A stretch of DNA of 64,000 nucleotides from Bradyrhizobium valentinum (GTDB taxonomy: Bacteria; Pseudomonadota; Alphaproteobacteria; Rhizobiales; Xanthobacteraceae), in the NCBI RefSeq assembly GCF_001440405.1, contig NZ_LLXX01000141.1, positions 25,230 through 89,229 of the forward strand, given 5' to 3'. The position numbers and the translations under genes were made by a program. The notes beneath the pieces were generated by a model. That model did not search any database and had not been told where the DNA came from. It was given only the letters and a program-made list of their open reading frames with translations. This document shows positions 1,274 to 60,875 of this stretch, piece after piece. How positions within the stretch are numbered: the stretch's first letter is position 1; each line of letters starts with the position of its first letter.

Positions 1274-1354
1274 ATGCGCGCAGTCGATCATGTCACGATC
1301 GGTGTCACCACCGAGCAGCCGCGACCGTGGCCTCAGTTCGACGCGGATATCTAA
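1274..1354 (+). pseudogene. N-terminal relic of FlK-like thioesterase
   Basis: Twenty-six codons from ATG 1274 to TAA 1352-1354 resemble the start of the intact thioesterase at 7735-8151: MRAVDHVTIGVTTEQ here against MDALDNVMIGMTAEK there. After that the similarity is lost and the frame stops. The relic lies downstream of the broken bicupin just as the intact thioesterase follows the intact bicupin, so the two genes were copied as a pair. The truncation point falls exactly where the dyad motif at 1351 begins. Confidence 0.6.
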
Positions 1355-1369
1355 ACTCCAATTTAGTGG
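1351..1369 (+). promoter_or_regulatory. Dyad motif CTAAA-N6-TTTAG-TGG before cupin/pao operon
   Basis: CTAAACTCCAATTTAGTGG is a perfect CTAAA/TTTAG dyad with a 6-base spacer. Its TGG end points to the cupin start, 61 bp downstream. TAACTT at 1389-1394 is a candidate -10 element 20-25 bp past the motif. This is one of 17 copies in the window. Confidence 0.7.
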
Positions 1370-1430
1370 TTTTCTGAACGGCCGCTGCTAACTTTTCACG
1401 GTTACCCATTCAAACAGGATCCGGGACGCC

Positions 1431-1835
1431 ATGAGTTCTCCTTCTGAAATTCATATCGTCAGCCCCGCCCAATTCGATCCGGGAACAGCGCAGACGCCAG
1501 GCTCCGAACGTCGCGCTGCTATCGCGCCAACGCTTGGCATAGCGTCCGGAATCTGGGGCGGCCTGTTCGTGGTGGAGCCAGGATCGCGGACGGGAATACA
1601 TCATCACGGAGAGCAGGAGACGATCGCCTACGTGCTCTCTGGCATCTGCGAAATACGATGGGGTGCGCGAGGAAAATCGGTCGCGCGTGCGAAGGCCGGA
1701 GACTTCATTCATGTCCCCGCCTTCCTGCCCCACATGGAAATCAATCCTTCGAAGAAGGCGCCGTTTCGATGGGTTGTCGTGCGTAGCACGGCGACGCCCA
1801 TCGTGATCAACCTACCGGACGACACTTGGCCGTAA
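1431..1835 (+). CDS. Single-domain cupin protein
   Basis: A 134-residue small cupin. The first cupin motif is IHHHGEQETIAYVLSG (two or three His plus Glu as likely metal ligands) and the second is AGDFIHVPAFLPHMEIN. There is no signal peptide, so it is probably cytosolic. It is the first gene after the dyad motif at 1351 and lies 52 bp upstream of paoA in the same direction, so it probably heads the pao transcript. Single cupins of this type bind metal and can be sugar or small-acid binding proteins, isomerases or dioxygenases; the substrate cannot be inferred. The fold is clear, the function unknown. Confidence 0.8.
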   Translation: MSSPSEIHIVSPAQFDPGTAQTPGSERRAAIAPTLGIASGIWGGLFVVEPGSRTGIHHHGEQETIAYVLSGICEIRWGARGKSVARAKAGDFIHVPAFLPHMEINPSKKAPFRWVVVRSTATPIVINLPDDTWP

Positions 1836-1887
1836 GCCCGGATGTCTTCCAGACAGCCATCATCGACTTGGCGAACATGGAGCAGTC

Positions 1888-2562
1888 ATGGACGAGCATG
1901 ATTCCAATACAGAACCCGGTACTCCAAATGCATTTGAAGTTACGCGCCGCACGGTAATTGAGACGGGAGCCACCGCATTGCTGTTGACCACGCTGCCGAA
2001 TGCTGTACTTGCGGACGATCAGATCGATGGCAACGAGCCCCCTTCATCCCCCGTGAAGGTCGAACTCCAGATCAACGGCCGTTCGCATTCGCTGGCCCTC
2101 GATCCCCGGACGACATTGCTCGATACTTTGCGGGAGCACCTCGCGCTGACGGGCTCGAAAAAGGGCTGCGATCACGGCCAATGCGGCGCGTGCACTGTGC
2201 TGATCGAAGGACGCCGCATCAACTCCTGCCTGACGCTCGCGGTGATGCACGACAGCCAATCGGTCACCACGATCGAGGGGTTCGCCCAAGGCGCGAATTT
2301 GCATCCAATGCAAACGGCCTTCGTCGAGCATGACGGCTTCCAGTGCGGCTACTGCACCTCCGGCCAGATCTGCTCGGCCATCGGAATGCTGGCCGAAAGC
2401 CAGCAGGGCATGCCGAGCTACGTGACCGAGGACCTGACGAAGTCGGCCCCCGAACTCACCGATGCGGAAATCCGCGAGAGAATGAGCGGCAACATCTGTC
2501 GCTGCGCAGCCTACCCCAACATCGTGGAGGCCATCAAACAAGCCGCGGGAATGCCAACATGA
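1888..2562 (+). CDS. paoA: Periplasmic aldehyde oxidoreductase, [2Fe-2S] subunit
   Basis: A 224-residue small subunit of a xanthine-oxidase-family molybdoenzyme. The N-terminal [15 protein letters not shown] followed by an Ala-containing cleavage region is a twin-arginine signal, so the complex is probably exported folded. Residues ~50-130 carry the plant-type [2Fe-2S] loop ([12 protein letters not shown]). The C-terminal half has the second cluster motifs [10 protein letters not shown] and NICRC. This matches PaoA/YagT of the PaoABC aldehyde oxidase, which oxidises aromatic and other aldehydes to acids. Its stop overlaps the paoB start (ATGA at 2559-2562), indicating translational coupling. 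Confidence 0.9.
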
Positions 2563-6324: not shown

Positions 6325-6343
6325 CTGAATATTAATTTAGTGG
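6325..6343 (+). promoter_or_regulatory. Dyad motif CTGAA-N6-TTTAG-TGG before oxalate decarboxylase
   Basis: CTGAATATTAATTTAGTGG lies 63 bp upstream of the bicupin start and points to it. CTATCT at 6362-6367 is a candidate -10 element 19-24 bp past the motif. Confidence 0.7.
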
Positions 6344-12424: not shown

Positions 12425-12625
12425 AGGAACTCCTGACCCGGCGCAGCCGCACCGATTGATGCGCACCTTGCGACGGACACACCGGAGATCTGGTAATGAG
12501 CGGATCTTGCGCTTGTCTCGGCTTGCGGCGCTTTACGCTTTATTGCCCCGGATTTCCCGATTACGGTCGTCCAGCCTGATACGCGCATGGCGGACGTTCC
12601 GCCGGGCTCACAGATGCCGCCTCGC

Positions 12626-12641
12626 ATAAAATCGAATTTAG
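12626..12641. promoter_or_regulatory. Dyad motif copy A (ATAAA-N6-TTTAG)
   Basis: ATAAAATCGAATTTAG, a near-perfect dyad without the TGG extension on either side. It starts 19 bp upstream of copy B, about two helical turns, so two dimers could bind the same face. Confidence 0.55.
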
Positions 12642-12644: not shown

Positions 12645-12663
12645 CTGAACGGCAATTTAATGG
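12645..12663 (+). promoter_or_regulatory. Dyad motif copy B (CTGAA-N6-TTTAA-TGG)
   Basis: CTGAACGGCAATTTAATGG points toward the AraC gene, 180 bp away. Together with copy A it forms one of the two clear tandem arrangements in the window. Confidence 0.6.
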
Positions 12664-15255: not shown

Positions 15256-15375
15256 CTTGGTCTCCTTTGGAGCGTGTGAGGTGGTGCAAGGCTACATCGG
15301 AGTGCGATTGCAGTTCCGCCAGTAAACTCCATTTGAGGAAGACGCGCGTCGGAGCGGACGTTCGCGCGTTGATCT

Positions 15376-15394
15376 CATTCAAATAATTTAATGG
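15376..15394 (+). promoter_or_regulatory. Dyad motif, degenerate left half, before sulfur cluster
   Basis: CATTC-AAATAA-TTTAATGG keeps the right half and TGG but has a poor left half. It lies 57 bp before the DsrE-like gene. TATCTATCT at 15411-15419 occupies the usual -10 position. Confidence 0.5.
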
Positions 15395-17963: not shown

Positions 17964-19334
17964 TTACGACGGCGTCGACGCATACGGACATGCAATCTCA
18001 ACCACACACCCAGACCCTGGAAGGATGGTAAACCGAAAGCCGTGCAACTTTACAATTGCTGCTACCAGGTTAAGGCCGAGACCCAGGCCTGATGTGTGTC
18101 TTACTTTATCCGACCGGTAGAAACGCCTTAGCACCGCGTCGCGCTCGTGTTCGCTGATGCCGAGACCGTTATCCCTCACGCGCACGATATTCTCGCCTTT
18201 GCCGCGAAACAATTCGATCTCAACCTGCCCACCGGCGGGCGTATACTTTATGGCGTTGTCGATGAGATTGGCCACCGCCTCGATCAGCAAGTCCCGGTCA
18301 CCATGGACGCTTAGTTCATCAGCTGACCGGATCAGAAGGGCGATACCTTTGTCTTCCGCTATCGGCTCGTACATGTCGACCACTTCGCGTGTGATATCCG
18401 CCAGCGCGACCTTGCCAAAGCCGGCCGATCGCTGACTTTTCTCGATTTCCGCAAGCCGCAGAATGGCGGTAATGATCGAAAGCGACTGATCTAGTGAGCT
18501 TATCGTTTTGTCTGCGGCAATCTGCAGCTGCTCCAGCGTGCTGGCGTTCGCGCGACCGCGCTCGAGCGTCAATAGTGCACGCGTGAGCGGCGTGCGCAGG
18601 TCATGCGCGATATCGTTGCCGAGGCCTGCTAGGGCGTGGATGAGAGTTTCCATCTCGTCGAGCATGCCATTGACTATCATGGCAAGTTTGGAGAAGGGGT
18701 CGTCGGTGTTCCGATGCGGGATTCGTTCACGCAGGTTGCCGGCGACAATGCGCTGTACCCGCTCGTTGATTTCAACGATTCGCCTGCGGGCGCGAGCGTA
18801 CAACACTACGCCGACCGCGAAGCAAAGAAGTACCGACGAAAGCAGACCAAGTGCGACCGCCCCTTCAACGACGTGCGCGATCTCCGTGACATCATCGACG
18901 TTTCGTCCGATCAAAAGCAGGTCACCGTTCGGCAACCTTCGCGCGATCAGGCGGACAGCCTGTTTTTTCCGGCCACTTTCGTCTCCCCGGTCGACCGCAG
19001 CGTCCTGTACCGCGTTGTCGGTTTTAAGATTTGGCGGCAGGTCTTCCAGATTGCCCGCAATCCTGCTGCCATTTGGTCCAAACAATCCCGCGAGCCTAAG
19101 GCGGCCCGGATCCTGCTTCAGATAGTCGTCGATCGCGTCGAGCCTACGATCGGGCGACAAGCCCGCAAAGAAGCCGCTTTGCGAGGCGATCACACGGTCG
19201 GAACGCATCGTCAGGTCATCGCTTATTTTCAAATAGACGAAGCCAAGCAATGCAACGATAAAGGCCGCAAAAGCCGCGGCCACCAGTACCGTCCACCGTA
19301 GCGTGGTCGAGCGCATGAACTCAGGCAATTGCAT
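17964..19334 (-). CDS. Sensor histidine kinase (OmpR-partner type), paralogue 1 of 3
   Basis: 456 residues from the ATG at 19332-19334. A membrane segment near residue 20, a ~120-residue periplasmic region and a second membrane segment frame the sensor. HAMP follows, then HisKA with GNDIAHDLRTPLTRALLTLE and HATPase with NLIDNAIKYTP, RDNGLGIS and GLGLGLNLVAAIVKLHG. The closest visible relatives are the kinases at 40804 and 44544, sharing the DPRRIRLAGLF-like periplasmic segment. No OmpR-type regulator is adjacent, so it is an orphan or shares the regulator at 45979. Confidence 0.88.
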   Translation of the reverse strand: MQLPEFMRSTTLRWTVLVAAAFAAFIVALLGFVYLKISDDLTMRSDRVIASQSGFFAGLSPDRRLDAIDDYLKQDPGRLRLAGLFGPNGSRIAGNLEDLPPNLKTDNAVQDAAVDRGDESGRKKQAVRLIARRLPNGDLLLIGRNVDDVTEIAHVVEGAVALGLLSSVLLCFAVGVVLYARARRRIVEINERVQRIVAGNLRERIPHRNTDDPFSKLAMIVNGMLDEMETLIHALAGLGNDIAHDLRTPLTRALLTLERGRANASTLEQLQIAADKTISSLDQSLSIITAILRLAEIEKSQRSAGFGKVALADITREVVDMYEPIAEDKGIALLIRSADELSVHGDRDLLIEAVANLIDNAIKYTPAGGQVEIELFRGKGENIVRVRDNGLGISEHERDAVLRRFYRSDKVRHTSGLGLGLNLVAAIVKLHGFRFTILPGSGCVVEIACPYASTPS

Positions 19335-19634: not shown

Positions 19635-20018
19635 TCATTTTCCCGCGTCGCCTCGACGTTCGCTCAGGGCAATCTCGATGCATTTGATCAAGACGGATCC
19701 CGCGAAGGGCTTGGCCAGGAAGGAAATAGCTCCGGCCTTCAGCGCTTGCGTGCGGACGTTCTCTTCGGGAAAAGCCGTGATAAAGATAAATGGCGCATCG
19801 TAACCTTGGCCGCGCATGTGCATCAGAAGGTCCAAGCCGCTCATAGCCGGCATCTGGACGTCCGCAATGACACAAGACGATTCGTCCAGGCAACTCGACT
19901 GCAAGAACTCCTCAGCCGACGCAAATGTATGGACCCGGTATCCATGCGAAGTTAGAAGATTGTCGGTCGCGACGCGGACGGAAGCGTCGTCATCAACGAC
20001 CGAGATTACCGAAAGCAT
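19635..20018 (-). CDS. Stand-alone response regulator receiver domain
   Basis: 127 residues from the ATG at 20016-20018; the longer frame from 20114 adds 32 residues with no domain. The receiver core is complete: acidic cluster VVDDDAS, phospho-acceptor Asp in VIADVQMPAMSG, Thr in FITAFPE and Lys in FLAKPFAGS. There is no output domain. Sequence style is close to FixJ-type receivers. Such single-domain regulators act as phosphate sinks or control partner proteins. It lies 250 bp downstream of the FixJ-type gene on the same strand. Confidence 0.8.
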   Translation of the reverse strand: MLSVISVVDDDASVRVATDNLLTSHGYRVHTFASAEEFLQSSCLDESSCVIADVQMPAMSGLDLLMHMRGQGYDAPFIFITAFPEENVRTQALKAGAISFLAKPFAGSVLIKCIEIALSERRGDAGK

Positions 20019-27926: not shown

Positions 27927-27930
27927 GCCC

Positions 27931-27962
27931 GCCGGCCGGCGCGCTCACGCGCGCTGCCGGCC
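27931..27962 (+). terminator. GC-rich hairpin after catalase
   Basis: The arm GGCCGGC-GCGC and its near-complement GCGC-GCTGCCGGCC surround a short loop just after the catalase stop. There is no T-tract, so termination efficiency is uncertain; it may instead protect the 3' end. Confidence 0.45.
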
Positions 27963-28034
27963 ATTCCCAACTAACAACGCTCCCTGGCGAAGCCTGATCG
28001 CCCCAAAGCGGAAATCTCATCTCTGGAGAGAACG

Positions 28035-30600: not shown

Positions 30601-30619
30601 CCATTAAATTCCTCTTCAG
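30601..30619 (-). promoter_or_regulatory. Dyad motif CTGAA-N6-TTTAA-TGG before small secreted gene
   Basis: On the minus strand CTGAAGAGGAATTTAATGG points to the gene starting at 30534, 66 bp away. TTATCT at 30582-30577 is in the -10 position (19-24 bp past the motif). Confidence 0.7.
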
Positions 30620-30740: not shown

Positions 30741-30759
30741 ATGAATCCCTTTTTAATGG
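30741..30759 (+). promoter_or_regulatory. Dyad motif (ATGAA-N6-TTTAA-TGG) before DUF202 gene
   Basis: ATGAATCCCTTTTTAATGG is 47 bp upstream of the DUF202 start. Its position argues against the apparent earlier ATG at 30741, which would be inside the motif. Confidence 0.6.
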
Positions 30760-32425: not shown

Positions 32426-32444
32426 ATAAATCCTTTTTTAATCG
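32426..32444 (+). promoter_or_regulatory. Dyad motif (ATAAA-N6-TTTAA) before first dps
   Basis: ATAAATCCTTTTTTAATCG lies 82 bp before dps. It keeps the dyad but has TCG where most copies have TGG. TCATCT falls at about the -10 distance. Confidence 0.5.
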
Positions 32445-40356: not shown

Positions 40357-40439
40357 GCCTGAACACTTTCCGTTTCACGCTCATGATCTTGAGCGGACCG
40401 CCGGCAAGTAGACGTCGCTCTCCACGGCATTCCTTTCAA

Positions 40440-40455
40440 CTAAAAACGAATTTAG
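40440..40455. promoter_or_regulatory. Perfect dyad CTAAA-N6-TTTAG
   Basis: CTAAAAACGAATTTAG is fully symmetrical in its half-sites and lacks a TGG extension. It lies 114 bp upstream of the polar copy at 40554. Confidence 0.55.
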
Positions 40456-40553: not shown

Positions 40554-40572
40554 CTAAAACCCTATTTAATGG
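40554..40572 (+). promoter_or_regulatory. Dyad motif CTAAA-N6-TTTAA-TGG upstream of kinase
   Basis: CTAAAACCCTATTTAATGG, followed by TG, is identical over 21 bases to the minus-strand site at 46924-46942. It points to the kinase, whose start is 231 bp away. TTAGAT at 40592-40597 is in the -10 position, implying a long leader. Confidence 0.6.
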
Positions 40573-40803: not shown

Positions 40804-42186
40804 ATGTTCGCAGGGATTGATTCATTCTCCGTGCAGCTTCCCGACGTTGTCCGCACCAGGACATTCCGCTGGGCCGCCGGTGCATTCGCGGTGTGCATCG
40901 TGCTGTTCTCGGCTTTCGTTTATTGGCAGGCTGTCGACTATATGTTGGCGAGAACGGATGCCGCCCTTACAGAGGAACTCCTCGCTATTGCCGCGGACTC
41001 TCCGGCTCGGCAGTTGAACGCTATCGACGATCGATTGAGCCACGATCCGCGTCGCATCAGACTTGCGGGTCTGTTCCGCCCGGATGGGCATCGAATCGCG
41101 GGCAATCTCGCGAGCCTTCCGCCAAGCCTCAAGATCGACGCTCCAGTTCAGAGCGTCGCGGCGATTCGGATCGATCCAAATGGCCCGGAAGAGATGACCG
41201 TTCGCGCAATTTCCCGCAACTTGCCGGACGGCAACGTGCTGGCGGTTGCCCGCAACATCGACGAACTGAAGCAGCTTGCGGAGGTCGTGGCGCGAGCCCT
41301 GCTATTGGGGTTACCCCTCGCCCTGTGCTTTGGCCTGGCGATCGGCATGGTCCTGAGCGTCAGAGCCCAGAAACGCGTGGCCGAATTTAATACACTCGTC
41401 CGCCGCATCGTCGCCGGCGATTTGCGACAGCGCCTGCGCACGCAGGGCCTTGACCATCCGTTCGACAAGCTTGCAGAAACCGCAAACGGAATGCTGGACG
41501 AAATTGAAGCTCTCGTGCGGGAGATGGCAGGGGTTGGCAACGAAATTGCTCACGATCTCCGTACACCGCTCACCCGGGTGCGCCTCGGCCTCGAACGAGG
41601 ACGCGCCAATGCCAAGAGCCTCGAGGAGTTACAGGCGGCCACCGACCGGGCGATTGGTGGCGTTGACCAGTCATTGACGATCATAACCAAGCTCTTGCGG
41701 ATCGCGGAGATCGAATATGGCGGACGCTTGAACGAACTCGACAATGTCGCGCTGCCCGACCTTGTCAGGGAAGTTGGCGATCTATACGCGCCCATCGCGG
41801 AGGACAAGCATATCACCCTGTGCGTGGTGGCGAGCGGTGATGCAACAGTGCGCGGCGACCGAGACCTGCTTCTTGAGGCAGTGGCCAACCTGGTCGACAA
41901 TGCCATGAAATTCACACCTGTAGGTGGGTCTGTCGAGGTCGCCCTGGTCCCCGGCAAGAACGAATCCATCGTTCGAGTTTCGGACTCGGGACCCGGCATC
42001 CGGGAGGATGAGCGGGATGCCGTCATTCGGCGCTTCTACCGTTCGGACAAGAGCCGAACCACATTCGGGTTTGGCCTGGGTCTGAGCCTGGTGTCAGCGA
42101 TCATCAAGCTGCACGGCTTTCGGCTCACGATAGCAACCGGTCCAGGTTGCGTGGCTCAGATCGCATGTACACTTCCTACCGTTTGA
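40804..42186 (+). CDS. Sensor histidine kinase, paralogue 2 of 3
   Basis: 460 residues. Layout: membrane helix near residue 30, ~120-residue periplasmic sensor (HDPRRIRLAGLFRPDGHRI), second helix, HAMP, HisKA with GNEIAHDLRTPLTRVRLGLE, HATPase with NLVDNAMKFTPVGG, DSGPGIREDE and GLGLSLVSAIIKLHG. It is clearly paralogous to the kinases at 17964 and 44544. No response regulator is adjacent. A dyad motif identical to that before the regulator at 45979 lies upstream, hinting that it belongs to the same circuit. Confidence 0.88.
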   Translation: MFAGIDSFSVQLPDVVRTRTFRWAAGAFAVCIVLFSAFVYWQAVDYMLARTDAALTEELLAIAADSPARQLNAIDDRLSHDPRRIRLAGLFRPDGHRIAGNLASLPPSLKIDAPVQSVAAIRIDPNGPEEMTVRAISRNLPDGNVLAVARNIDELKQLAEVVARALLLGLPLALCFGLAIGMVLSVRAQKRVAEFNTLVRRIVAGDLRQRLRTQGLDHPFDKLAETANGMLDEIEALVREMAGVGNEIAHDLRTPLTRVRLGLERGRANAKSLEELQAATDRAIGGVDQSLTIITKLLRIAEIEYGGRLNELDNVALPDLVREVGDLYAPIAEDKHITLCVVASGDATVRGDRDLLLEAVANLVDNAMKFTPVGGSVEVALVPGKNESIVRVSDSGPGIREDERDAVIRRFYRSDKSRTTFGFGLGLSLVSAIIKLHGFRLTIATGPGCVAQIACTLPTV

Positions 42187-42249: not shown

Positions 42250-42268
42250 TTGAACGAGAATTTAATGG
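42250..42268 (+). promoter_or_regulatory. Dyad motif TTGAA-N6-TTTAA-TGG before Gly-rich gene
   Basis: TTGAACGAGAATTTAATGG points to the Gly-rich gene 123 bp downstream. No clear -10 element at the usual distance. Confidence 0.55.
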
Positions 42269-42903: not shown

Positions 42904-42919
42904 TTGAATTCGAATTTAA
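42904..42919 (+). promoter_or_regulatory. Dyad motif copy A before rpoH
   Basis: TTGAATTCGAATTTAA followed by TG. It starts 20 bp upstream of copy B, the same arrangement as at 12626/12645. Confidence 0.6.
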
Positions 42920-42923
42920 TGTC

Positions 42924-42942
42924 CTAAACCTCAATTTAATGG
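42924..42942 (+). promoter_or_regulatory. Dyad motif copy B before rpoH
   Basis: CTAAACCTCAATTTAATGG, 89 bp before the sigma factor start. TATCAT at 42962-42967 matches the -10 position. This is one of the cleanest promoter-like arrangements in the window. Confidence 0.7.
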
Positions 42943-43031: not shown

Positions 43032-43964
43032 ATGGGCATTGAAGGGCAATTTGCAGGCCTCGCAATTCGAACACGGCGCGAACCAGCGCTAGCCAATGGT
43101 GGCACTGGTAAAGGCTATCTCCACGACATCCGGCGTTTCGCGATGCTCGAGAGGGAGCAGGAGTTTGAGCTCGCCAAGCGCTGGCGCGAGCACGGCGACC
43201 GTGATGCTGCCAACCAGCTTGTTACAAGTCATTTGCGTCTGGCCGCTAAAATCGCCATGGGCTACCGCGGCTACGGTCTTCCGGTCTCGGAAATCATCTC
43301 CGAAGGCAATGTAGGCTTGATGCACGCATTGAACCGGTTTGAGCCAGAGAAGGGCTTTCGCTTCACCACTTACGCGATGTGGTGGATCAAGGCTTCCATC
43401 CAGGACTATATTCTGCGCTCCTGGTCCCTTGTGAAAATAGGCACTACCTCGAACCAGAGGAAGCTCTTTTTCAAACTGCGAACCGCAAAGAGCAAGATTG
43501 CTGCATTCGAAAGTGGAGACCTGCGCCCGGACCAGGTCGCTTCGATCGCAAAGAGCCTCGATGTCACGGCCCAGGATGTCGTCGACATGAATCGACGCCT
43601 CGCCGGCGATAAATCGATCAATGCGCCGATACATAACGACACCGAAGTCGGCGAATGGCAGGACCATCTCGTCGATCAGTCGCCCTCACCGGAAGCCATC
43701 GTCGTCGAACAGGACGAGCAGGACTACCAGCGCAAGGCGCTGATTGCTGCAATCGACGTGCTGGACGACCGCGAACGCCGTATCTTCGAGGCGCGACATT
43801 TGGTCGACGAACCATCGACGCTGGAAGACCTCGCGGCCAAATTCAGCGTGTCGCGTGAACGCATCCGGCAGATCGATGCCCGCGCCTTCGAGAAAGTACG
43901 AAAGGCGGCCAAGAATCTTGCGGTAAAAGCGCATGTGGCGGAGCAGGAGGCTTGGAACCGCTGA
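43032..43964 (+). CDS. rpoH: RpoH-type alternative sigma factor
   Basis: 310 residues. Region 2 includes SHLRLAAKIAMGYRGYGLPV and SEGNVGLMHALNRFEPEKGF, then TYAMWWIKASIQDYIL; the RpoH box QRKLFFKLR is present. Region 4 is TLEDLAAKFSVSRERIRQID. These identify a sigma-32 (heat-shock) family factor. Alphaproteobacteria often carry several rpoH genes; this one, behind tandem dyad sites, may link the dyad regulon to protein-damage responses. Confidence 0.93.
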   Translation: MGIEGQFAGLAIRTRREPALANGGTGKGYLHDIRRFAMLEREQEFELAKRWREHGDRDAANQLVTSHLRLAAKIAMGYRGYGLPVSEIISEGNVGLMHALNRFEPEKGFRFTTYAMWWIKASIQDYILRSWSLVKIGTTSNQRKLFFKLRTAKSKIAAFESGDLRPDQVASIAKSLDVTAQDVVDMNRRLAGDKSINAPIHNDTEVGEWQDHLVDQSPSPEAIVVEQDEQDYQRKALIAAIDVLDDRERRIFEARHLVDEPSTLEDLAAKFSVSRERIRQIDARAFEKVRKAAKNLAVKAHVAEQEAWNR

Positions 43965-44543: not shown

Positions 44544-45911
44544 TCAGCCTGATTGACGACCGGGACAAATGATCTCCATCCGGCCGCCGGGGCCTGAATG
44601 AATCGCCAGCCTGAAGCCGTGAAGCTTTACGATGGCAGCCACAAGGTTGAGGCCAAGCCCCACACCCGGCGTACTGCGGATCTTGTCCGACCGGTAGAAA
44701 CGCCGCAGCACGGCCTCGCGCTCCTGTTCGCTGATGCCGGGGCCCGTATCTGTAATGCGCACGATAGTTTTTTTGTCGCCGCTTTCCAGCTCGATGCCCA
44801 CCCGGCCGCCTTCGGGCGTGAACTTGATGGCGTTGTCAACGAGGTTGGCGACCGCCTCAAACAACAGATCCCGGTCACCAAGCACGTTAAGGTTGTATTT
44901 CACCTTGGCTCGCAAGTCGACCTTCTTGTTCTCCGCGATCGGCTCGTATAGGTCGCAGACCTCGCGCAGCATTGCGTGCAGGGGCACGCTGCCGAAGGCC
45001 GCCGAGCGCCGGCTGTTTTCGATTTCAGCCAGACGCAACAGCGCAGTGATAATGGCCAGCGACTGATCAATACTTGCGATCGCCTTATCTGCAACCGTCT
45101 GGAGCTGTTCGACCGTGGTCGCGTTGGTGCGGCCGCGTTCAAGAGCGAGCCGTGCCCGTGTCAGCGGCGTACGCAAGTCGTGTGCGATGTCGTTGCCGAC
45201 GCCGGCGAGCGCGTGGATCATCGTTTCCATTTCATCGAGCATGCCATTCACGATGACGGCGAGCTTCGAAAACGGCTCGTCGGCGTTACGGTGCGGAAGC
45301 CGTTCGCTCAGATCACCGGCGATGATGCGCTGTACCCGTTTATTGACCTCTTCGACCCGCTTCTGGGCGCGCATGCTCAACAACGCCCCCGCCAGCAGGC
45401 ACAGGCAAAGCGCCGGCAACAAACCCAGCGCGAGCGCCTGACCGACGACGTGGGAAATCTCCCTCGTTTCATCGACCTCACGTCCGATGACCAGCGTGTT
45501 GCCGTTCGGCATTGTTCGGGCGATCGCGCGGATGACGCGAGCGTCCCGCCCTGTCGGAAGCATCCGAGTGACCGAGACGTTATGGACAATATCGTTCAAC
45601 CTGAGCTCGGGCGGAATCCGTTCCATGTTGCCGGCTATCCTGCGGCCGTCCGCGCCGAACAGTCCGGCATGTTGAACCCCGCGGGAATCCTGCTTCAGAT
45701 TTTGATTGATCGCAGACAGCTGCTGTTCACCAGGCAGGCCAGCGATAAAGTCTAATTGGCTGCTGATCATCCTGTCGGACCGTGTGATCAGGTAGTCGTC
45801 GACCTTCCAATAGATGAAGCCGAACAGCGTAATGACGAAAACTGCGAACACCCCGGCCACCGCGAGGGTCCAGTGAAAAGTACTCGAACGTATGAATTGC
45901 GGTTGACGCAT
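44544..45911 (-). CDS. Sensor histidine kinase, paralogue 3 of 3
   Basis: 455 residues from the ATG at 45909-45911 (MRQPQFIRSSTFHWT). Two membrane helices frame a periplasmic domain. Then HAMP, HisKA (GNDIAHDLRTPLTRARLALE), HATPase (NLVDNAIKFTPEGG, DTGPGISEQE, GVGLGLNLVAAIVKLHG). It is directly downstream of an OmpR-type regulator on the same strand (67 bp), so this is the one kinase of the three with an evident partner. Confidence 0.9.
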   Translation of the reverse strand: MRQPQFIRSSTFHWTLAVAGVFAVFVITLFGFIYWKVDDYLITRSDRMISSQLDFIAGLPGEQQLSAINQNLKQDSRGVQHAGLFGADGRRIAGNMERIPPELRLNDIVHNVSVTRMLPTGRDARVIRAIARTMPNGNTLVIGREVDETREISHVVGQALALGLLPALCLCLLAGALLSMRAQKRVEEVNKRVQRIIAGDLSERLPHRNADEPFSKLAVIVNGMLDEMETMIHALAGVGNDIAHDLRTPLTRARLALERGRTNATTVEQLQTVADKAIASIDQSLAIITALLRLAEIENSRRSAAFGSVPLHAMLREVCDLYEPIAENKKVDLRAKVKYNLNVLGDRDLLFEAVANLVDNAIKFTPEGGRVGIELESGDKKTIVRITDTGPGISEQEREAVLRRFYRSDKIRSTPGVGLGLNLVAAIVKLHGFRLAIHSGPGGRMEIICPGRQSG

Positions 45912-45978
45912 CGGATCTCGCCGCCCGGATATCGTGCTAGCCGTCAACGACGGCGCATTGCTCCCGGCCATTGTAAAC

Positions 45979-46656
45979 TTATGGTCCCGCGCGAAGAATG
46001 AAGCCGGCGCCGCGGACATTGTGGATCATTGGGACTTCGCCGGGACCATCCACCTTATGCCGCAGGCGGCCCATATGCACGTCCACAAGATTGGTCGTCG
46101 GAACGAACTTGTAATTCCAGACTTCCTCCAGAAGCATGGCCCTCGTCAAAAGCTGATCGCTACGTTGCACCATATATTCGAGCAGGCGAAACTCGCGCGG
46201 CAGCAGATCGATGACGCGATCGCCGCGTTTGGCGGTGCGCTTGATCAGATCGAGCTCGAGCTGCCCTGCCCGCAGCGTCGTTTCGCGCGATTCCGCCGGA
46301 CGGCGCAGCAACGCCTCGACCCGGGCGATAAGTTCGACCAGCGCAAAGGGTTTGGTGAGATAGTCGTCGCCACCCATCCGCAATCCGCGCACGCGGTCGT
46401 CCACCGCGCCTAGCGCGCTCAGCACCAGCACCGGAGTGCGCACCTGGTCCTTTCGCAGCGCCTCGATCACCGTAAGCCCATCCATTCCGGGCAACAGCCG
46501 ATCGACGATCATGGCGTCCGGCCGCGATGATCGCGCCTTGTCGAGGCCATCGATCCCGTTGGCCGACCATTCGACTTCAAAACCGCGATCGGCCAGCTCG
46601 GCGGTGATTTCCTCAGCCGTCTCGCTATCATCCTCGATCAGCAGCACTTTTGTCAT
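45979..46656 (-). CDS. OmpR-family response regulator
   Basis: 225 residues from the ATG at 46654-46656 (MTKVLLIEDDSE). The receiver has IEDDSE, the Asp in IVDRLLPGMDG, VLSALG and LTKPFALVEL. The C-terminal winged helix ends in LVDVHMGRLRHKV and VRGAGFILRAGP. It pairs with the kinase at 44544, and may also serve the two orphan kinases. A dyad site upstream (46924) makes it a candidate autoregulated controller of the dyad regulon. OmpR-type proteins bind half-sites one helical turn apart, consistent with the 11-bp centre spacing. Confidence 0.92.
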   Translation of the reverse strand: MTKVLLIEDDSETAEEITAELADRGFEVEWSANGIDGLDKARSSRPDAMIVDRLLPGMDGLTVIEALRKDQVRTPVLVLSALGAVDDRVRGLRMGGDDYLTKPFALVELIARVEALLRRPAESRETTLRAGQLELDLIKRTAKRGDRVIDLLPREFRLLEYMVQRSDQLLTRAMLLEEVWNYKFVPTTNLVDVHMGRLRHKVDGPGEVPMIHNVRGAGFILRAGP

Positions 46657-47012
46657 CAATCGATTCCCGACTGCGGCGAAAACATTCGCAGACCTTGAGG
46701 TTCCTACCCCCACGACTGCACGCTTGCCCGAGACCCCTGTCATGTCAACGACCACCTGCCATGGATTGCTCCCGAAAAGAGCGGGACGGCGCCGCCGCCC
46801 GCCTCATTCGGGGGCAAAAGGCTTGGCGTGCGCCGTCCGCTCGGCGACCATCTGCCACCGCCTGAGGGGGCAAGCGCGGTGGGGCCGCTCACGGGTGAAT
46901 TTAGGCCGGGTCCGTCGCGCGCACCATTAAATAGGGTTTTAGAATTCGGAGCTGCCGCCGTCAGGACCTCTGCAACGTTTGATGGCCCCTGTCGAGGGAA
47001 GGCGTTACCCTC
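46657..47012. other. 356 bp region upstream of OmpR regulator
   Basis: It contains the minus-strand dyad site at 46924-46942 and a lone CTAAA half-site at 46900-46904. The latter falls at the -10 distance (as TAAATT on the minus strand). No supported gene. Confidence 0.5.
46924..46942 (-). promoter_or_regulatory. Dyad motif CTAAA-N6-TTTAA-TGG upstream of OmpR regulator
   Basis: Minus-strand CTAAAACCCTATTTAATGG (plus TG), identical to the site at 40554. It points to the regulator start 267 bp away. The candidate -10 is TAAATT 21-26 bp past it. Confidence 0.6.
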
Positions 47013-48042: not shown

Positions 48043-49305
48043 CTAACCAGGTTGCGCTTTTCGTACCGAGACCTTGCTGCCTTCCGCCAAGCCCACCATC
48101 GGATTGAGGATGACCTGGTCGTCGGGCTTGACGCCGTCATGAACCTCGACCTCCTTGCCGAAGTCGCGTGCGATCGTGATCTTCTGCAGATGGACGGTGC
48201 CATCTTGGACAACCGCAACGTGCAAGCCATCTTGATCGAAAACGACAGCGCCTGCGGGAACAATCATCGCTGGCGTCTTGCGTGGAATAAACAGCTCGAC
48301 CGAGCAGTAAATTCCGGGGCTGAGCGCGCCGTCCGGATTGGGAACATCGATCTCGGTCAAAAGCGTCCGGCTTCCGGGCTGCAACGCGCTCGCTATCCGT
48401 GTCACCTTGCCCGGAAACGTACGATCCGGAATCTCGGGGACACGAACCACCGCGTCGACGCCGGGTCCAAGCCCGAACGCCTCGTCCTGCGGGACGAACA
48501 CCTGCGTTCGGATAACGTTGGGGTGCATCAGCGTAAACATGAAGGTCGATCCGGATGTCACCAGGCTGCCGTTGTCGATGGCGCGCTGTGTGATCACGCC
48601 GTCGAACGGCGCCACCACGCGCTGGTAGGCCTTCTCCTGCCCAAGTACTCGAACTTGAGCCTCCTGGGCTGCAATATTCGATTGAGCCACTGCAACAGCA
48701 GCCTGCTGTGCCTGCAGGGTGAGGCGATCGTTGTCGCCTTGCTGAAGTGTGAGCCATCCCTGCTTGACCAGATTGCTGTCACGCGCATTGGTGACCTGGG
48801 CGAGGTCCCGGCTTGCCTGCGTTTGCTGCAGTGTGGCCTGGTTCTGAGCCAGCGTCGCCTTGGCTTGCGTAATCTGATGATCGAGCTCAGGGGCCGTGAT
48901 GTTCGCCAGCAGCGCTCCCGCCTTTACCTGATCGCCGATATCGACATAGCGCTTTTCGATATAGCCGCTGGTACGGGCGAAAATGTTCGCGGCCTCAAAT
49001 GCTGTGGTGGTCGCCGGCAACGTGACGGTTATCTTGCTGTCGCTGGCACGGACCGCGGCGACGCGAACATCGGGGACAAACGCCCTGCTCTGCTGCGCGG
49101 TGGCCATGACGTCGACCTCCGCCTGGTAATGGCGCCAGGCGCCCGCGCCAACGCCGCCCACGAGTAGCAGCAACGCACTTCCGCCGAGCAGCGCCCCTCC
49201 GTAACGACGCCGCCGCTTGCATGGTAGCGCAACAACGCGATCTGACTTAGGGTCAGTCCGGTTCTCGGCATTTTCATCTGTGGGCCGCGCACTAATGTCG
49301 GTCAT
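48043..49305 (-). CDS. RND efflux periplasmic adaptor (membrane fusion protein)
   Basis: 420 residues. A membrane anchor (ALLGGSALLLLVGGVGAGAW) near residue 40, lipoyl/barrel-sandwich segments (TSGYIEKRYVDIGDQVKAGA and VVAPFDGVITQRAIDNGSLV), a coiled-coil hairpin rich in Gln/Ala between, and a beta-barrel. This is the HlyD/AcrA-type adaptor. Its ATG overlaps the RND gene stop (49302-49305), so it is translated after the pump, the reverse of the common order. Confidence 0.9.
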   Translation of the reverse strand: MTDISARPTDENAENRTDPKSDRVVALPCKRRRRYGGALLGGSALLLLVGGVGAGAWRHYQAEVDVMATAQQSRAFVPDVRVAAVRASDSKITVTLPATTTAFEAANIFARTSGYIEKRYVDIGDQVKAGALLANITAPELDHQITQAKATLAQNQATLQQTQASRDLAQVTNARDSNLVKQGWLTLQQGDNDRLTLQAQQAAVAVAQSNIAAQEAQVRVLGQEKAYQRVVAPFDGVITQRAIDNGSLVTSGSTFMFTLMHPNVIRTQVFVPQDEAFGLGPGVDAVVRVPEIPDRTFPGKVTRIASALQPGSRTLLTEIDVPNPDGALSPGIYCSVELFIPRKTPAMIVPAGAVVFDQDGLHVAVVQDGTVHLQKITIARDFGKEVEVHDGVKPDDQVILNPMVGLAEGSKVSVRKAQPG

Positions 49306-52300
49306 TCCGGGACCTCCTCAAATACGCCATGGTGAGGCTTTCCGTCGTTGCCCTTGCGCAGGATGGCGAATAGGTAGGGCACGATCAGCAGCGTCGTCGG
49401 TGTCGCAAACAGCAGCCCGCCGATGACGGCGCGTGCGAGCGCCGCGTTCTGCTCCTCGCCCGCGCCTCCGATCGCCATCGGGATCATGCCGACCATCATG
49501 GCTGCAGCCGTCATCAGCACGGGACGGATCCGGGTATAGCCGGCGCTCAGGGCGGCCTCAAAGGCGGAGTGCCCTTTCAACTGCTGCTCGCGCGCGAAGG
49601 TCACGAGTAGTATCGAGTTCGCCGAGGCAACGCCGACCGCCATGATCGCTCCCATCAGCGAGGGAACATTCAGCGTGGTGCCAGTGACGAACAACATCGT
49701 GACAATGCCGCAGAGTGTCGCCGGCAGCGCCAGAATCACGACGAACGGGTCGCCGAAATTCTGATAATTCACAACCATCAGCAGATAGACGAAGACCGCG
49801 GCGAACAGCAAACCGATACCCAGATTTCGAAACGAGTCGTTCATGCTCTGGATCTGTCCGATCACCTGAATTGAATTGCCGGGCTTGAGTGTCTTCTGCA
49901 GCTCGGTCGTGACCTTGTTGATGTCAGCGGCAACGCTGCCGAGATCACGGCCCTGCACACTGGCATACACATCAAATACCGGCTGGATGTTGGTCTGATT
50001 GGAGTTCGTGGCGATCTTTTCCCGCTTGAACGTCGCGACGTTGCTGAGCATGCCGGGGACCGTTTGGCCACTCACCGCGAGCGAAGTGGAAACCGGCGTG
50101 TTTGCGAGCGCATTCAGCGAGTTGACCTTGTACTCTGGCGTCTGCACAGCCAGATAATACGGAATCCCCGAGATCGGATCGGTCCAGAAATTGGGCGACA
50201 CCTGCTCCGATGAACTCAGGCTGACATTGATGTTGGTAGCGATCGTGCTGGCATTGAGACCAAGCTGCGCCGCGCGGGTCCGATCGATCTGGGCAAAGAA
50301 GGCCGGACCGTCGACTTCCTGCTGCAGATGCGCGTCGACGATGCCGGGAATCGCGGCAAGGCGTTGGCGAAGCTCCCTTGCGACCGCGAGATTGTTGAGA
50401 TCGTAGCCCACGGTTCGGACGTCGATCTGCGCCGGTAACCCGAAGTTCAGAATCTGCGTAACGATATCGGCGGCCTGGAAATAGAATGTAGCCTCCGGAA
50501 ATGCGGCGGGCAGTACCTGACGCAGTTTCTTGATGTAGTCGGCGGTCGGCTTGTGTCCCTCCTTGAGCGCCACCTGGATGACGCCATCGTTGATCCCGAT
50601 CGTCGAGCCATCGGCGAATGCGAGATTGTAGGCTCGCGCCGGCAGTCCGATATTGTCGACGATCATCAAGCGGTCCTTCTCCGGAATGACCTCGCGGATC
50701 TTGTCCTCGACCGCCTGGAACATCGCCTCCGTGCTCTCGATGCGCGTTCCCGCAGGAGCGCGTACATGCAGCTGGATCTGCCCGCCGTCGATCAGCGGGA
50801 AAAAGTCGCGCCCAACAAACGTAACCATCACCGCGCCAAGGCCGAGTATCAACACGGCAACGACGGGAACGATCGCCTTCCGCCGAAGCAGGGTCGTCAG
50901 GAGCTTCGAGTATCCATCGCGCAGCCGATCGAAGCCGCGGTCGAATGCCGCCGTCATCCGCGAGAACAGGCCTGCCGGCGCCCCCTCACCCGTGTGGCGA
51001 CGTTCACTCCTGAGCAATAGCCCGATCGTGATTGGCGTCAGGGTCCGCGATAATCCATAGGAAGCCAGCATCGCAAACACGACGGCCAGTCCCAGCGGCG
51101 TGAACAGGTACTTGGCCGGTCCGTCGAGGAACACCACTGACGTGAAGACGCAGCTGATGGCGAGCGTCGACACCAAGGTAGGCACCGCGATTTCGGCGGC
51201 GCCATGCAGCGTCGCCTCGGAGAGCGGCATGCCTTCCTCCGTCCATAGGCGATGGGTATTCTCGATCGTCACGGTCGAATCGTCGACCAATATGCCGACC
51301 GCCAGCGCAAGGCCCCCGAGGGTCATCGTGTTCAGGGTTTCGCCGAGAAAATACAGCACGGTGAGTGACGACAGGATCGCCAGCGGAATTGAGATCATCA
51401 CCACCAGCGTCGAGCGCCATGAACCCAGGAAAACCAGAATCATCAACGCCGTGAGGCCGGCCGCGATGGCACCTTCGCGCAGGACACCATTGACGGAGTT
51501 CTTGACGAATACCGACTGATCGAACAACTCCTTGACGTTGAGCCCGGCCGGCGCAGCGGCTCGGATGTTCTGCAGCGCCTGCTTCACGCCATTGACGACC
51601 GCCAATGTGGAAGCATTGCCGTTCTTGATCACGCTGAGCAGAACCGAGCGGCGGCCGTCTTCGCGCACGATGTTTTGTTGCACCATGGATCCGTCACGGA
51701 CCTGCGCCACGTCTTTCAAAAAGATGGTGGCCCCATTTGAAAACTTTACCGGCATCATGTTGAGATCGTCGATAGATGCCGGCGTCGCGTTGGTTCGCAC
51801 CGTGTATTGGGTTTCTCCGATCTTCGCTGTTCCCGACGGCAGCGTCAGATTCTGCGTATTGACCGCGTTCACGATGTCGAGCGGCGTCAATCCTCGGGAC
51901 AGGAGCTTGTCCGGGTCGATATCCACCATGATCTGACGATACTTGCCGCCGGCCGGCGTCGGCAGAGTGACGCCAGGCACCGGCGCCAGTTGCTGCCGGA
52001 CCCGATAGATACCGAAGTCATAGAGCTGCTGCTCGTTCAGGCTGTCCGAGCTGAGGCTGAGCTGCAGCACGGGAACGCTCGACGCATTGAACTGCACAAC
52101 GATCGGCGGCTGGATACCGGGCGGCATCAACGAGCGAATGGAATTGGTAGCGGAGACGATTTGCGCGATAGCGAGGTCGAGATTGACGTTCGGCTGGAAG
52201 TAAATCTTCTGGATCGACAGACCATTGAGCGTCTGCGCTTCCATGTTCTTGATGCCGTTGACGTTCGCACTGATGGAATATTGGCTGTAGGTGGTGACGC

Positions 52301-52484
52301 GCTGCTCCATTTCCGGCGTGGTAAGTCCGGTGTATTGCCAGATCACGGTGACCACCGGGATTTGGATTTCCGGAAATATGTCCGTCGGCATCGACCGGAT
52401 GGCGGCGACGCCGAGAAACAGGATCAGTGCTGCCAGCACATAGAAAGTGTGCGGAAGCCGTAGCGCAAACCGAACGATCCCCAT
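49302..52484 (-). CDS. RND-family multidrug/metabolite efflux pump
   Basis: 1060 residues with 12 membrane helices and two large periplasmic loops. RSMPTDIFPEIQIPVVTVIW is the family start. TM4 carries the proton-relay pair in VGILVDDSTVTIENTHR. The second half repeats the fold (GLGAVMVTFVGRDFFPLIDG). The sequence resembles the HAE-1/MdtB-like branch. No TolC-type channel lies in the operon. A minus-strand dyad motif 96 bp upstream makes the operon a member of the putative regulon. Confidence 0.92.
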   Translation of the reverse strand: MGIVRFALRLPHTFYVLAALILFLGVAAIRSMPTDIFPEIQIPVVTVIWQYTGLTTPEMEQRVTTYSQYSISANVNGIKNMEAQTLNGLSIQKIYFQPNVNLDLAIAQIVSATNSIRSLMPPGIQPPIVVQFNASSVPVLQLSLSSDSLNEQQLYDFGIYRVRQQLAPVPGVTLPTPAGGKYRQIMVDIDPDKLLSRGLTPLDIVNAVNTQNLTLPSGTAKIGETQYTVRTNATPASIDDLNMMPVKFSNGATIFLKDVAQVRDGSMVQQNIVREDGRRSVLLSVIKNGNASTLAVVNGVKQALQNIRAAAPAGLNVKELFDQSVFVKNSVNGVLREGAIAAGLTALMILVFLGSWRSTLVVMISIPLAILSSLTVLYFLGETLNTMTLGGLALAVGILVDDSTVTIENTHRLWTEEGMPLSEATLHGAAEIAVPTLVSTLAISCVFTSVVFLDGPAKYLFTPLGLAVVFAMLASYGLSRTLTPITIGLLLRSERRHTGEGAPAGLFSRMTAAFDRGFDRLRDGYSKLLTTLLRRKAIVPVVAVLILGLGAVMVTFVGRDFFPLIDGGQIQLHVRAPAGTRIESTEAMFQAVEDKIREVIPEKDRLMIVDNIGLPARAYNLAFADGSTIGINDGVIQVALKEGHKPTADYIKKLRQVLPAAFPEATFYFQAADIVTQILNFGLPAQIDVRTVGYDLNNLAVARELRQRLAAIPGIVDAHLQQEVDGPAFFAQIDRTRAAQLGLNASTIATNINVSLSSSEQVSPNFWTDPISGIPYYLAVQTPEYKVNSLNALANTPVSTSLAVSGQTVPGMLSNVATFKREKIATNSNQTNIQPVFDVYASVQGRDLGSVAADINKVTTELQKTLKPGNSIQVIGQIQSMNDSFRNLGIGLLFAAVFVYLLMVVNYQNFGDPFVVILALPATLCGIVTMLFVTGTTLNVPSLMGAIMAVGVASANSILLVTFAREQQLKGHSAFEAALSAGYTRIRPVLMTAAAMMVGMIPMAIGGAGEEQNAALARAVIGGLLFATPTTLLIVPYLFAILRKGNDGKPHHGVFEEVPE

Positions 52485-52580: not shown

Positions 52581-52599
52581 CAATTAAAAACCGATTTAG
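52581..52599 (-). promoter_or_regulatory. Dyad motif CTAAA-N6-TTTAA-TTG before RND operon
   Basis: Minus-strand CTAAATCGGTTTTTAATTG, 96 bp before the RND start and pointing to it. TTG replaces TGG, as at 58109 and 60857. Confidence 0.6.
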
Positions 52600-54080: not shown

Positions 54081-54081
54081 A

Positions 54082-58108: not shown

Positions 58109-58127
58109 CTAAACAGCTTTTTAATTG
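58109..58127 (+). promoter_or_regulatory. Dyad motif CTAAA-N6-TTTAA-TTG before second dps
   Basis: CTAAACAGCTTTTTAATTG lies 109 bp upstream of dps copy 2. No strong -10 at the usual spacing (best is GATCTA at 21-26 bp). Confidence 0.6.
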
Positions 58128-59060: not shown

Positions 59061-59180
59061 AGCTCGAGGCCGGGCCTTTCCCCAGCATAGCTGGCACTTC
59101 CGACCAGGAAAATGCCGGTTTGATCATTGAGCATTTCGGTCACCGCCACCGAAAATCCAAGGCACGGATGAGGATATGTC

Positions 59181-60116
59181 ATGAAGATCGGAATTGTCGG
59201 AGCAGGAGCCGTCGGGGCCGCATGTGCAATGGCAACCCTCATGCGAGGTTGCGCCAGCGAGCTGGTTCTCGTCAACCGAGCCCGCGATCGCGCGAGAGGC
59301 ATGGCGACCGACATGGGCTACGGGGCGCCACTGTCATCTACTGCCAGGGTGACAGAAGGAGACTATTCGGATCTGGCAGGCGCCGCACTCATCATGATCA
59401 CCGCCGGCGTCAACGAGAAATCCGGCGGGGCAACGGATCGCAGCGATCCCCTAGGCCGCTTGCGCCTGCTGGACAGGAATGCCGAGATCTACCGCAAGGT
59501 AATTCCGCCGATCACCACGGCCGCGCCGGACGCCGTTCTGCTCGTCGTCACCGACCCTCCTGATCCGCTTGCCTATCTTACCCGCGAACTGGCCGGCCAT
59601 GAACGCGTTCTCTCTACCGGCACGCTGCTCGACAGCCTGCGCTTTCGCGTGCATCTGGGCCGACGGCTCAGGGTAGCTCCTACAGCCATCGAAGCGCAGG
59701 TTCTGGGCGAACACGGAACATCCCAGATTTTTCATTGGTCCGCCGCCCGCGTGGGCGGCGTCCCGCTTCCGGATGCGCTTGAGCAGTTCGGGGTTATGCA
59801 AGGCGACGACGTCCGCACGACGATCGAGAATGAAGTGCGCTATGCAAACATCACGATCATTGAAGGTATTGGAGCCAGCCAGTATGGAATTGGAATGGTC
59901 TGCGCACGGATCGCCGAAATCGTGCTGCGCGACGAACGCACCGTAGTTCCGATCGGGGCCTATAATTCAAAACTTGGAGTGACACTCTCGCTACCCGGCC
60001 TCGTCGGCCGCGACGGTTGCCTCCAGGCCCTCGAGCCTCCTCTGTCGAATGACGAACATGCCGGTCTCAAGAAATGCATAGAAACATTGCGTAAGGTCCA
60101 AGAGCGAATTCGCTGA
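59181..60116 (+). CDS. Lactate/malate dehydrogenase-family NAD enzyme
   Basis: 311 residues. Rossmann motif KIGIVGAGAVGAACAMA; catalytic Asp and Arg in LLDSLRFRVHLG; catalytic His in LGEHGTSQ. The substrate-specificity loop reads GVNEKSGGATDRSDPLGRL, where L-lactate dehydrogenases have a QKPGETR-type sequence and malate enzymes an Arg. So the substrate is uncertain, possibly another 2-hydroxy acid. No dyad motif lies directly upstream, though the dps unit is just ahead. Confidence 0.85.
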   Translation: MKIGIVGAGAVGAACAMATLMRGCASELVLVNRARDRARGMATDMGYGAPLSSTARVTEGDYSDLAGAALIMITAGVNEKSGGATDRSDPLGRLRLLDRNAEIYRKVIPPITTAAPDAVLLVVTDPPDPLAYLTRELAGHERVLSTGTLLDSLRFRVHLGRRLRVAPTAIEAQVLGEHGTSQIFHWSAARVGGVPLPDALEQFGVMQGDDVRTTIENEVRYANITIIEGIGASQYGIGMVCARIAEIVLRDERTVVPIGAYNSKLGVTLSLPGLVGRDGCLQALEPPLSNDEHAGLKKCIETLRKVQERIR

Positions 60117-60215
60117 CTAATGTCGACGGAAATAATTTCGGGTGGCTTTGGCTTTTCCCGGGCGCCGAACATGAAGGCCTTGATGTCCAGCGCGCCTATG
60201 CGGCAGTCGTGACGT

Positions 60216-60785
60216 TTATGCCGCCGCTCGAACAAAGCGCGCTGCCCTGATCTCCTCGAGGAGATCATCGACACCCGCAAGTGCGAAGCTGAGCGCAGCT
60301 TCGTCGATGAGGCGCCCGTCGCGCACCTTCTCGTGCACGCCGCCGATCACGATCTGCGGCCGAAAAACAGGACGTGCCGGTATCGATGCGAGTGTCTCGT
60401 ACATCTGCTGCTGCGCGCGCACACCACCGGTGAAGGCGGGCGAGGCCGTCATCGTCAGCACCGGCTTGCCTTTCAGCGCCGACAGACCGTAGGGCCGAGA
60501 GGCCCAGTCGAGCGCATTCTTCAGGACGCCGGACATGCCATGATTGTATTCGGGTGAGATCATGATCACGCCATAGCTCGCCTCAATCGCCGAACGCAGG
60601 GCACGCACCGATTCAGGTGCGTGCTCGGCGTCATCATCCTCGTTGTAGAGCGGAATCGCATGCAGCGGGAAAATGTCGAGCGCAGCCCGGGACCCGAGCG
60701 CGTTCTGCAGGCCGCGAAGCACCGCGGTGCTGTTGGAGGCGCGGCGCAGGCTGCCGGAGAGGCCGAGAAGCGAGAGTTGTGTCAT
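60216..60785 (-). CDS. NAD(P)H-dependent FMN reductase (flavodoxin-like)
   Basis: 189 residues from the ATG at 60783-60785. FMN phosphate loop GLSGSLRRASNSTAVLR and the second site SPEYNHGMSGVLKNALDWAS are typical of the ChrR/azoreductase-type NADPH:FMN oxidoreductases. These reduce quinones, chromate or flavin and can limit redox cycling. A minus-strand dyad motif lies 71 bp upstream, placing it in the putative regulon. Confidence 0.88.
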   Translation of the reverse strand: MTQLSLLGLSGSLRRASNSTAVLRGLQNALGSRAALDIFPLHAIPLYNEDDDAEHAPESVRALRSAIEASYGVIMISPEYNHGMSGVLKNALDWASRPYGLSALKGKPVLTMTASPAFTGGVRAQQQMYETLASIPARPVFRPQIVIGGVHEKVRDGRLIDEAALSFALAGVDDLLEEIRAARFVRAAA

Positions 60786-60856
60786 CGGGGGACGAGGCTC
60801 CAAAAAACTGGCATTTCCAAATTGGCGATCAGAGAAACATCGCCGTCGGTCAAGCT

Positions 60857-60875
60857 CAAGTAAATTCGATTTTAG
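60857..60875 (-). promoter_or_regulatory. Dyad motif CTAAA-N6-TTTAC-TTG before FMN reductase
   Basis: Minus-strand CTAAAATCGAATTTACTTG, 71 bp before the start codon and pointing to it. GTTTCT at 19-24 bp is a weak -10 candidate. Confidence 0.6.

Follow-up and report, generated by a model that had tools for sequence, protein, structure and literature searches.

A recurrent putative activator-type promoter element in Bradyrhizobium valentinum and its probable CzcR/CopR-like response regulator

Which regulator reads a short polar motif that recurs in front of genes along one stretch of the Bradyrhizobium valentinum genome? The stretch (the window; 64,000 nt, positions 25,230 to 89,229 of contig NZ_LLXX01000141.1, assembly GCF_001440405.1) had been given a sequence-only reading, which listed 17 copies of the pattern CTRAA-N6-TTTAR-TGG and proposed that they join the genes behind them into a regulon. 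As judged from comparative sequence analysis, the motif very probably combines an activator site with the −35 element of promoters switched by a CzcR/CopR-like response regulator, referred to as P0003, which is encoded in the window together with a membrane histidine kinase.

A recurrent motif with promoter-like anatomy

Allowing up to two mismatches, the pattern occurs 16 times in the window against 1.38 expected, a count reached in none of 100 shuffles. A matrix iterated on the sites of the whole genome (G000; 8.85 Mb in 242 contigs), those of the window included, returned 17 window sites above a score threshold of 14, compared with a mean of 0.1 (maximum 2) over 60 dinucleotide shuffles. 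In six contig stretches (coding fraction 61%), picked for holding matches and searched with our own, conservative gene calls, none of 45 such sites lay within a called gene, 30 of the 45 being on the window's contig. The shuffled-sequence and inside-gene comparisons thus both favour the motif, and bear out the claims that it is real and that no good copy lies inside a supported gene. The list itself needed revision, as most copies were refound by the matrix but that at 15376 was missed, and those at 12626 and 40440 fit better on the other strand.

Across the genome, 18 exact copies were found against 0 for a reversed-pattern control, 12 of them on the 123-kb contig of the window (C141) and 7 within the window itself; with one mismatch allowed the numbers were 43 and 29, so that a single weak match at another place in the genome will often be due to chance. 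In 195 genomes of the same genus, drawn from a larger group, 223 exact copies were counted against about 76 for the control (counted by eye). Since the two patterns are not matched in context, the matrix was preferred over this control. A pattern scan of genome contigs gave at least 118 stretches, mostly from AT-rich genomes, and the two Bradyrhizobium loci among the matches listed each carry a strong site (34.8 and 32.4). Contigs C186 and C188 of G000 bear a nearly identical divergent site pair near their ends, either a duplicated locus or an assembly split.

The repeated unit consists of a 16-bp dyad, TRAAM-N6-TTART, followed by a degenerate −35 element that reads TGG or, in some copies (in the window those at 52581, 58109, 60857 and 40437), TTGA. 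The anatomy was read from 120 non-redundant sites of G000 and further genomes. Their core runs T[AG]AA and then AATTTA[AG]; all 120 have T at +16 and G at +18, separated by G in 105 and by T in 12 (TKG at the −35 position). As the matrix used to select the sites spans these columns, their conservation is partly a result of selection. The −10 element CTAYMT lies outside the matrix; in 101 of the 120 sites it begins at +37 or +38, 18–19 nt after TGG. The dyad scores higher as an inverted repeat (4.41) than as the best direct repeat (3.14), and the direct-repeat reading was discarded on this account. Relative to the rhizobial sigma-70 consensus CTTGAC-N17-CTATAT, as quoted in excerpts of PMC2873474, TGG aligns with the TTG of the −35 element, the −10 element is the same and the spacing, 16 or 17, is equal within a base, whereas the −35 element is degenerate (TGG), as expected for an activator-dependent promoter. 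The polarity of the motif is best explained by this −35 element, and the centre of the dyad would be near −42, an activator position. Most assigned gene starts in the window lie some 50–270 nt downstream of the sites. Inverted symmetry, near-fixed −10 spacing and the position of the gene starts uphold the earlier proposal of a regulon read by a dimeric activator.

Could the copies instead be a spread repeat or mobile element, or nucleoid or partition sites, with no regulatory role? Sites are clustered on few contigs of G000, all 17 exact copies of G019 lie within 131 kb, and some promoters share a longer GGCGGATTGCGAACCTACATCA-like stretch. However, the absence of sites from called genes, the near-fixed position of the −10 element and the placement before orthologous genes, together with the dispersal of sites over the chromosome in G052 (20 of the 28 copies listed) and G025 (13 of 13), make such an origin extremely unlikely. 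No tRNA was found within 37 kb of the G019 cluster in either direction, and therefore no island is claimed. The GGCGGATTGCGAACCTACATCA-like stretch lies between −35 and −10, as if copied from one ancestor, and was seen at L208, L213 (G025), C141:8749(−) and C188:32190(−).

P0003 as the probable reader of the motif

P0003 passes the cut-offs of PF00072 (receiver) and PF00486 (winged-helix Trans_reg_C). The best of its NCBIfam matches listed is TIGR01387 cztR_silR_copR with 212.9 bits, under the cut-off of 279.2, and the partner kinase reaches 190.4 bits against cztS_silS_copS, under the cut-off of 292.55. Orthologues of P0003 (E < 1e-90) are present in 85 of the 195 genomes, while of the 110 negative genomes 107 have matches only at E of about 1e-65 to 1e-73 and 3 have none at E ≤ 1e-60. 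A promoter model (R1) built on sequence only from 62 promoters, with matches counted at E up to 0.1, found the promoter in 85 of 85 positive and 2 of 110 negative genomes (Fisher p = 6e-54); the search was run with the stricter Infernal filters and a ceiling of 30 scored candidates per genome, so that its counts are lower bounds, with G052 standing at 30. Of the exact copies, 220 of 223 belong to P0003-positive genomes. Furthermore, a G000-trained matrix, with two regulator promoters among its sites, found a site directed towards the regulator gene in each of 40 upstream regions fetched from as many of the 85 positive genomes (score ≥13.1; 98–610 nt from the ATG), 25 of which have no exact copy anywhere. 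Among the 17 genomes whose P0003 orthologue is at least 90% identical, 15 have 8–30 promoter matches, and over the 85 genomes match number correlates with P0003 (Spearman 0.62, partial 0.53).

Relatives of P0003 are rare in an order-wide sample of 297 genomes, with matches at E ≤ 1e-78 in only 7, 6 of this genus. Nine of 79 matching plasmid records were examined: five carry a site beside the regulator (Bradyrhizobium sp. 184, AM1, CM4, Sphingomonas and Polymorphobacter), one, from Mesorhizobium (56.5% identity), has a weak site (16.1) before pump genes, and three have none. Plasmid p184_1 of sp. 184 bears sites before the regulator and before aldo/keto reductase-cupin-xanthine dehydrogenase genes. 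In Methylorubrum extorquens CM4 (58%), the regulator and the CusA/CzcA pump genes are divergent, and the site in the gap between them is directed at the pump; AM1 (61.5%; record without a gene table) has one in the corresponding position. In G459, from another family (59%), the site lies 64 nt upstream of the regulator start and points away from it, facing an open reading frame (ORF) that resembles an ECF-type sigma factor. In Sphingomonas parapaucimobilis and Polymorphobacter (57%), the gap between regulator and pump holds a divergent pair of sites (18.4/12.0 and 12.5/11.9, respectively), with TTGAC or TCGAC in place of TGG. No site was found within 1.5 kb of 23 regulators of 51–56% identity from other families, part of 38 such matches listed (best score 3.0). 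On the S. parapaucimobilis plasmid (L395), the regulator-kinase pair stands by a CusA/CzcA pump, followed by Dps and catalase genes, an arrangement that may be viewed as a small-scale version of the stress link.

Several observations weigh against the assignment of the motif to P0003. The count of 85 of 85 is partly circular, since regulator promoters make up at least 21 of the 62 on which the model was trained and the regulator gene carries a site; more weight is therefore given to the 40 of 40 upstream regions. Promoters also occur in two P0003-negative genomes, with one strong site in G053 and three in G077. Outside the genus, three of the four Sphingomonadales sites score below 14 (11.9–12.5), no site was found beside the regulator or pump of Beijerinckiaceae RH AL1 (60%), and none in Azospirillum (58%) or Methylocella (56%, pump start not covered). 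When 40 oxalate-decarboxylase promoters were tested, site-rich genomes being left out, 35 of the 36 from P0003-positive genomes had no site, the lone positive being G173 with 11.3 (next best 3.1), and none of the four from regulator-negative genomes had one. Match number, finally, also tracks the FixJ-type regulator P0001 (Spearman 0.57, partial 0.45).

P0001 (20269–20928(−)), a FixJ/NarL-type response regulator encoded next to a PAS kinase (20925–23774), was the first candidate owner of the motif, as its closest orthologues fit most of the site-rich genomes: the 13 of 195 genomes with the best P0001 matches (E ≤ 1e-104, 77–100% identity) have 6–30 promoter matches, against 1–16 in the other 72 P0003-positive genomes. 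NarL-type boxes are also inverted repeats of about 16 bp. However, 72 of 72 P0003-positive genomes outside this group still have the promoter, and P0001 is therefore not needed. G144, whose P0001 match is 80% identical over 194 residues, was counted outside the group and has 5 promoter matches; G152 (16 matches) and G102 (10) have weaker P0001 matches only, and both, together with G031, are without close P0001 among the 15 genomes with 8–30 matches and P0003 at ≥90% identity. In addition, no site above 14 was found at P0001's own promoter in the window, and outside the genus the motif sits beside P0003 relatives. On the distribution of P0003, the 40 of 40 upstream sites and the 72 of 72 genomes, P0001 was set aside and its ownership of the motif judged very improbable, although it may have a secondary role, because both regulators correlate with match number. 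The P0001 neighbourhood comprises the large PAS kinase and a receiver-only protein (19635–20018). P0001 is the one GerE match on C141 among 38 in the genome, while the 35 HTH_Crp_2 matches (CRP/FNR candidates) include none on C141 and one on the site-bearing contig C1.

The sites might also be RpoH-type promoters, with TGG as −35 and an RpoH-like CTAYMT as −10; their readers would then be the products of the rpoH paralogues, which also count among the targets. P0004 is an RpoH with sites upstream, rpoH-like genes follow sites in several genomes among the matches listed, and the −10 element resembles the RpoH type; at the −35 position, for which an RpoH promoter would have a CTTG-type element, the sites read TKG. 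The −10 element nevertheless fits the housekeeping rhizobial consensus equally, the −35 element is preceded by the conserved dyad, and P0004 matches of at least 73% identity occur in 13 of 195 genomes whereas promoter matches occur in 87. An RpoH is thus not required as sole reader, and we consider that reading highly unlikely, while an RpoH could act together with the activator.

Proposed mechanism, known relatives and growth of the regulon

With P0003 as the reader, the membrane kinase would, upon its signal, phosphorylate P0003, whose dimer would bind the 16-bp dyad next to the weak −35 element (TGG/TTG) and help RNA polymerase to start at promoters with the CTAYMT −10 element. The regulator gene, having its own site, would activate itself. 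Three CzcS-like kinases (17964–19334, 40804–42186 and 44544–46019) and one OmpR-type regulator gene were noticed in the window, and a layout in which several sensors feed one regulator is possible.

The motif had been said not to match the FNR/FixK, LexA, EcfG, RpoN or Irr-type elements; this calls for a correction in that its layout is that of CzcR/CopR boxes, from which it differs in sequence. The likeness to the CzcRS, CopRS and CusRS systems of Pseudomonas and E. coli further rests on the best NCBIfam matches of regulator and kinases, and on the position of the regulator by CusA/CzcA-type pumps in CM4 and the two Sphingomonadales records. A palindromic box accompanying both regulator and metal RND pump gave a mixed picture: seen in these three, it was not seen in RH AL1, and in the window one site precedes a pump whose permease matches ACR_tran. 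On the other hand, the regulator and kinases of the window score too low for the curated heavy-metal subfamily cut-offs, and we know of no metal response of a P0003-type system. The FixK/FNR, RegR and EcfG stress and redox regulons of Bradyrhizobium cover overlapping kinds of target genes with other boxes. According to excerpts of PMC11195947, the P. aeruginosa CzcR box is GAAAC-n6-GTAAT, with a second half-site common to CopR and CusR, and thus has the same 5-N6-5 palindromic form as the window motif; the same paper calls the regulons of CusR very restricted, compared with up to about 30 promoters here.

Promoter matches number 1–5 in 67 of the 85 P0003-positive genomes and 6–30 in the other 18, so the system would be narrow in the former and broad in the latter. 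In B. valentinum, sites are mostly clustered on the 123-kb contig, and in the window they precede genes for a cupin and molybdenum hydroxylase, a bicupin, an AraC regulator, a DUF202 and sulfite oxidase-like pair, two Dps-like proteins, an RND pump, an FMN reductase, an RpoH-family sigma factor, a CzcS-like kinase, several small secreted-looking proteins and the regulator itself. Conservation before orthologous genes, proposed earlier as a check, proved uneven. Besides the regulator promoter, relatives of the rpoH-like, paoABC-like, AraC, cupin and RND pump genes keep sites in other site-rich genomes (among the matches listed), and an exact copy stands 63–66 nt before the oxalate-decarboxylase gene in seven of the seven site-rich genomes checked (G000, G019, G050, G090, G137, G158 and G176), against 1 of 36 elsewhere. 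Targets were therefore recruited in particular lineages, lineage being defined here by regulator identity.

Tentatively, a narrow system of the metal-efflux type may have become a master stress regulator in one Bradyrhizobium group by repeated promoter capture, driving extra kinases of its own and RpoH-type sigma factors. If this is true, the result would be a self-amplifying network in which several sensors feed one regulator. The proposal would provide a regulator, a box and a promoter layout for redox and stress genes for which no described regulator was found among the papers listed, and a comparative case of regulon growth from 1 to about 30 promoters in one genus, apparently with the same regulator and box. 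No paper on the motif or system was found among the open-licence PMC matches listed (titles and abstract starts), and AATTTAATGG together with Bradyrhizobium gave 0 matches in open-licence PMC papers. A very strong promoter (36.9) at L314:1525(−) in G053 stands without a regulator orthologue and is possibly a relic.

Sites and genes of the window

The sites and principal genes are collected in Table 1. Most sites point to a plausible target, as had been claimed of every polar copy; that at 40437(−), however, faces small ORFs, of which a signal-like one is 347 nt away.

Table 1. Motif copies and associated genes, in window coordinates; values are matrix scores unless given in bits.
Feature	Position	Strand	Score	Following gene or domain matches
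Site, exact match	1351..1369	+	32.3	Cupin gene (1431) and molybdenum hydroxylase (paoABC-like) genes; Cupin_2, Fer2
Site, exact match	6325..6343	+	24.8	Bicupin/oxalate decarboxylase-like gene (6407); Cupin_1 twice
Weak site, overlaps listed 12626 copy	12623..12641	-	15.8	Towards NAD-binding dehydrogenase gene; NAD_binding_2
Site, exact match	12645..12663	+	31.7	AraC-family regulator (12844); AraC-type matches below curated cut-offs
Weak site, absent from earlier list	15319..15337	-	15.6	86-aa secreted-looking ORF (15255-14995)
Right half-site only, with TGG and −10	15376..15394	+	not matrix-found	15452 (DoxDA-AhpD-like cluster)
Site, exact match	30601..30619	-	24.2	78-aa secreted-looking protein (30534-30298)
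Weak site	30741..30759	+	16.6	DUF202 protein and sulfite oxidase-like gene (31230); DUF202, Oxidored_molyb
Weak site	32426..32444	+	15.6	First dps-like gene (32500/32527); Ferritin
Site, listed 40440 copy re-stranded	40437..40455	-	20.0	Small ORFs only
Site, exact match	40554..40572	+	30.1	CzcS-like kinase gene (40804); HisKA, HATPase_c
Second CzcS-like histidine kinase, site upstream	40804..42186	+		HisKA, HATPase_c
Site	42250..42268	+	22.6	Glycine-rich small protein (42317 or later)
Weaker tandem site	42904..42922	+	15.5	rpoH-like gene
Site, exact match	42924..42942	+	31.3	rpoH-like sigma factor gene
RpoH-family sigma factor P0004, target	43032..43964	+	351.1 bits	rpoH_proteo, cut-off 323.1
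Partner histidine kinase, CzcS/CopS-like	44544..46019	-		Best NCBIfam match cztS_silS_copS, below cut-off
OmpR/CzcR-like response regulator P0003, proposed site regulator	45979..46656	-		Response_reg, Trans_reg_C
Site, exact match, best of window	46924..46942	-	35.2	Response regulator gene (putative autoregulation)
RND pump permease, target	49302..52484	-		ACR_tran
Site, TTTAATTG type	52581..52599	-	23.8	RND efflux pump genes
Site, TTTAATTG type	58109..58127	+	20.4	Second dps-like gene (58192/58237); Dps match below cut-off
Site, TTTACTTG type	60857..60875	-	26.9	NADPH-dependent FMN reductase gene; FMN_red

Some of these entries call for comment. ORFs similar to that at 15255-14995 are also preceded by sites in G015 and G158. 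The ORF at 15452 has no Pfam match, the DoxD/DoxA and CMD domains lying downstream. The longest ORF behind the 30741 site has its ATG on the site itself, but the probable DUF202 start is 30807. The tblastn matches of the RpoH-like paralogue (43032-43964) in G019 and G158 contain one stop, and some copies may be decaying. Finally, a catalase gene paired with one that appears to be aquaporin-like occurs twice in the genome, at 26448-28781 of the window and at C125:9258-11568, both on site-bearing contigs.

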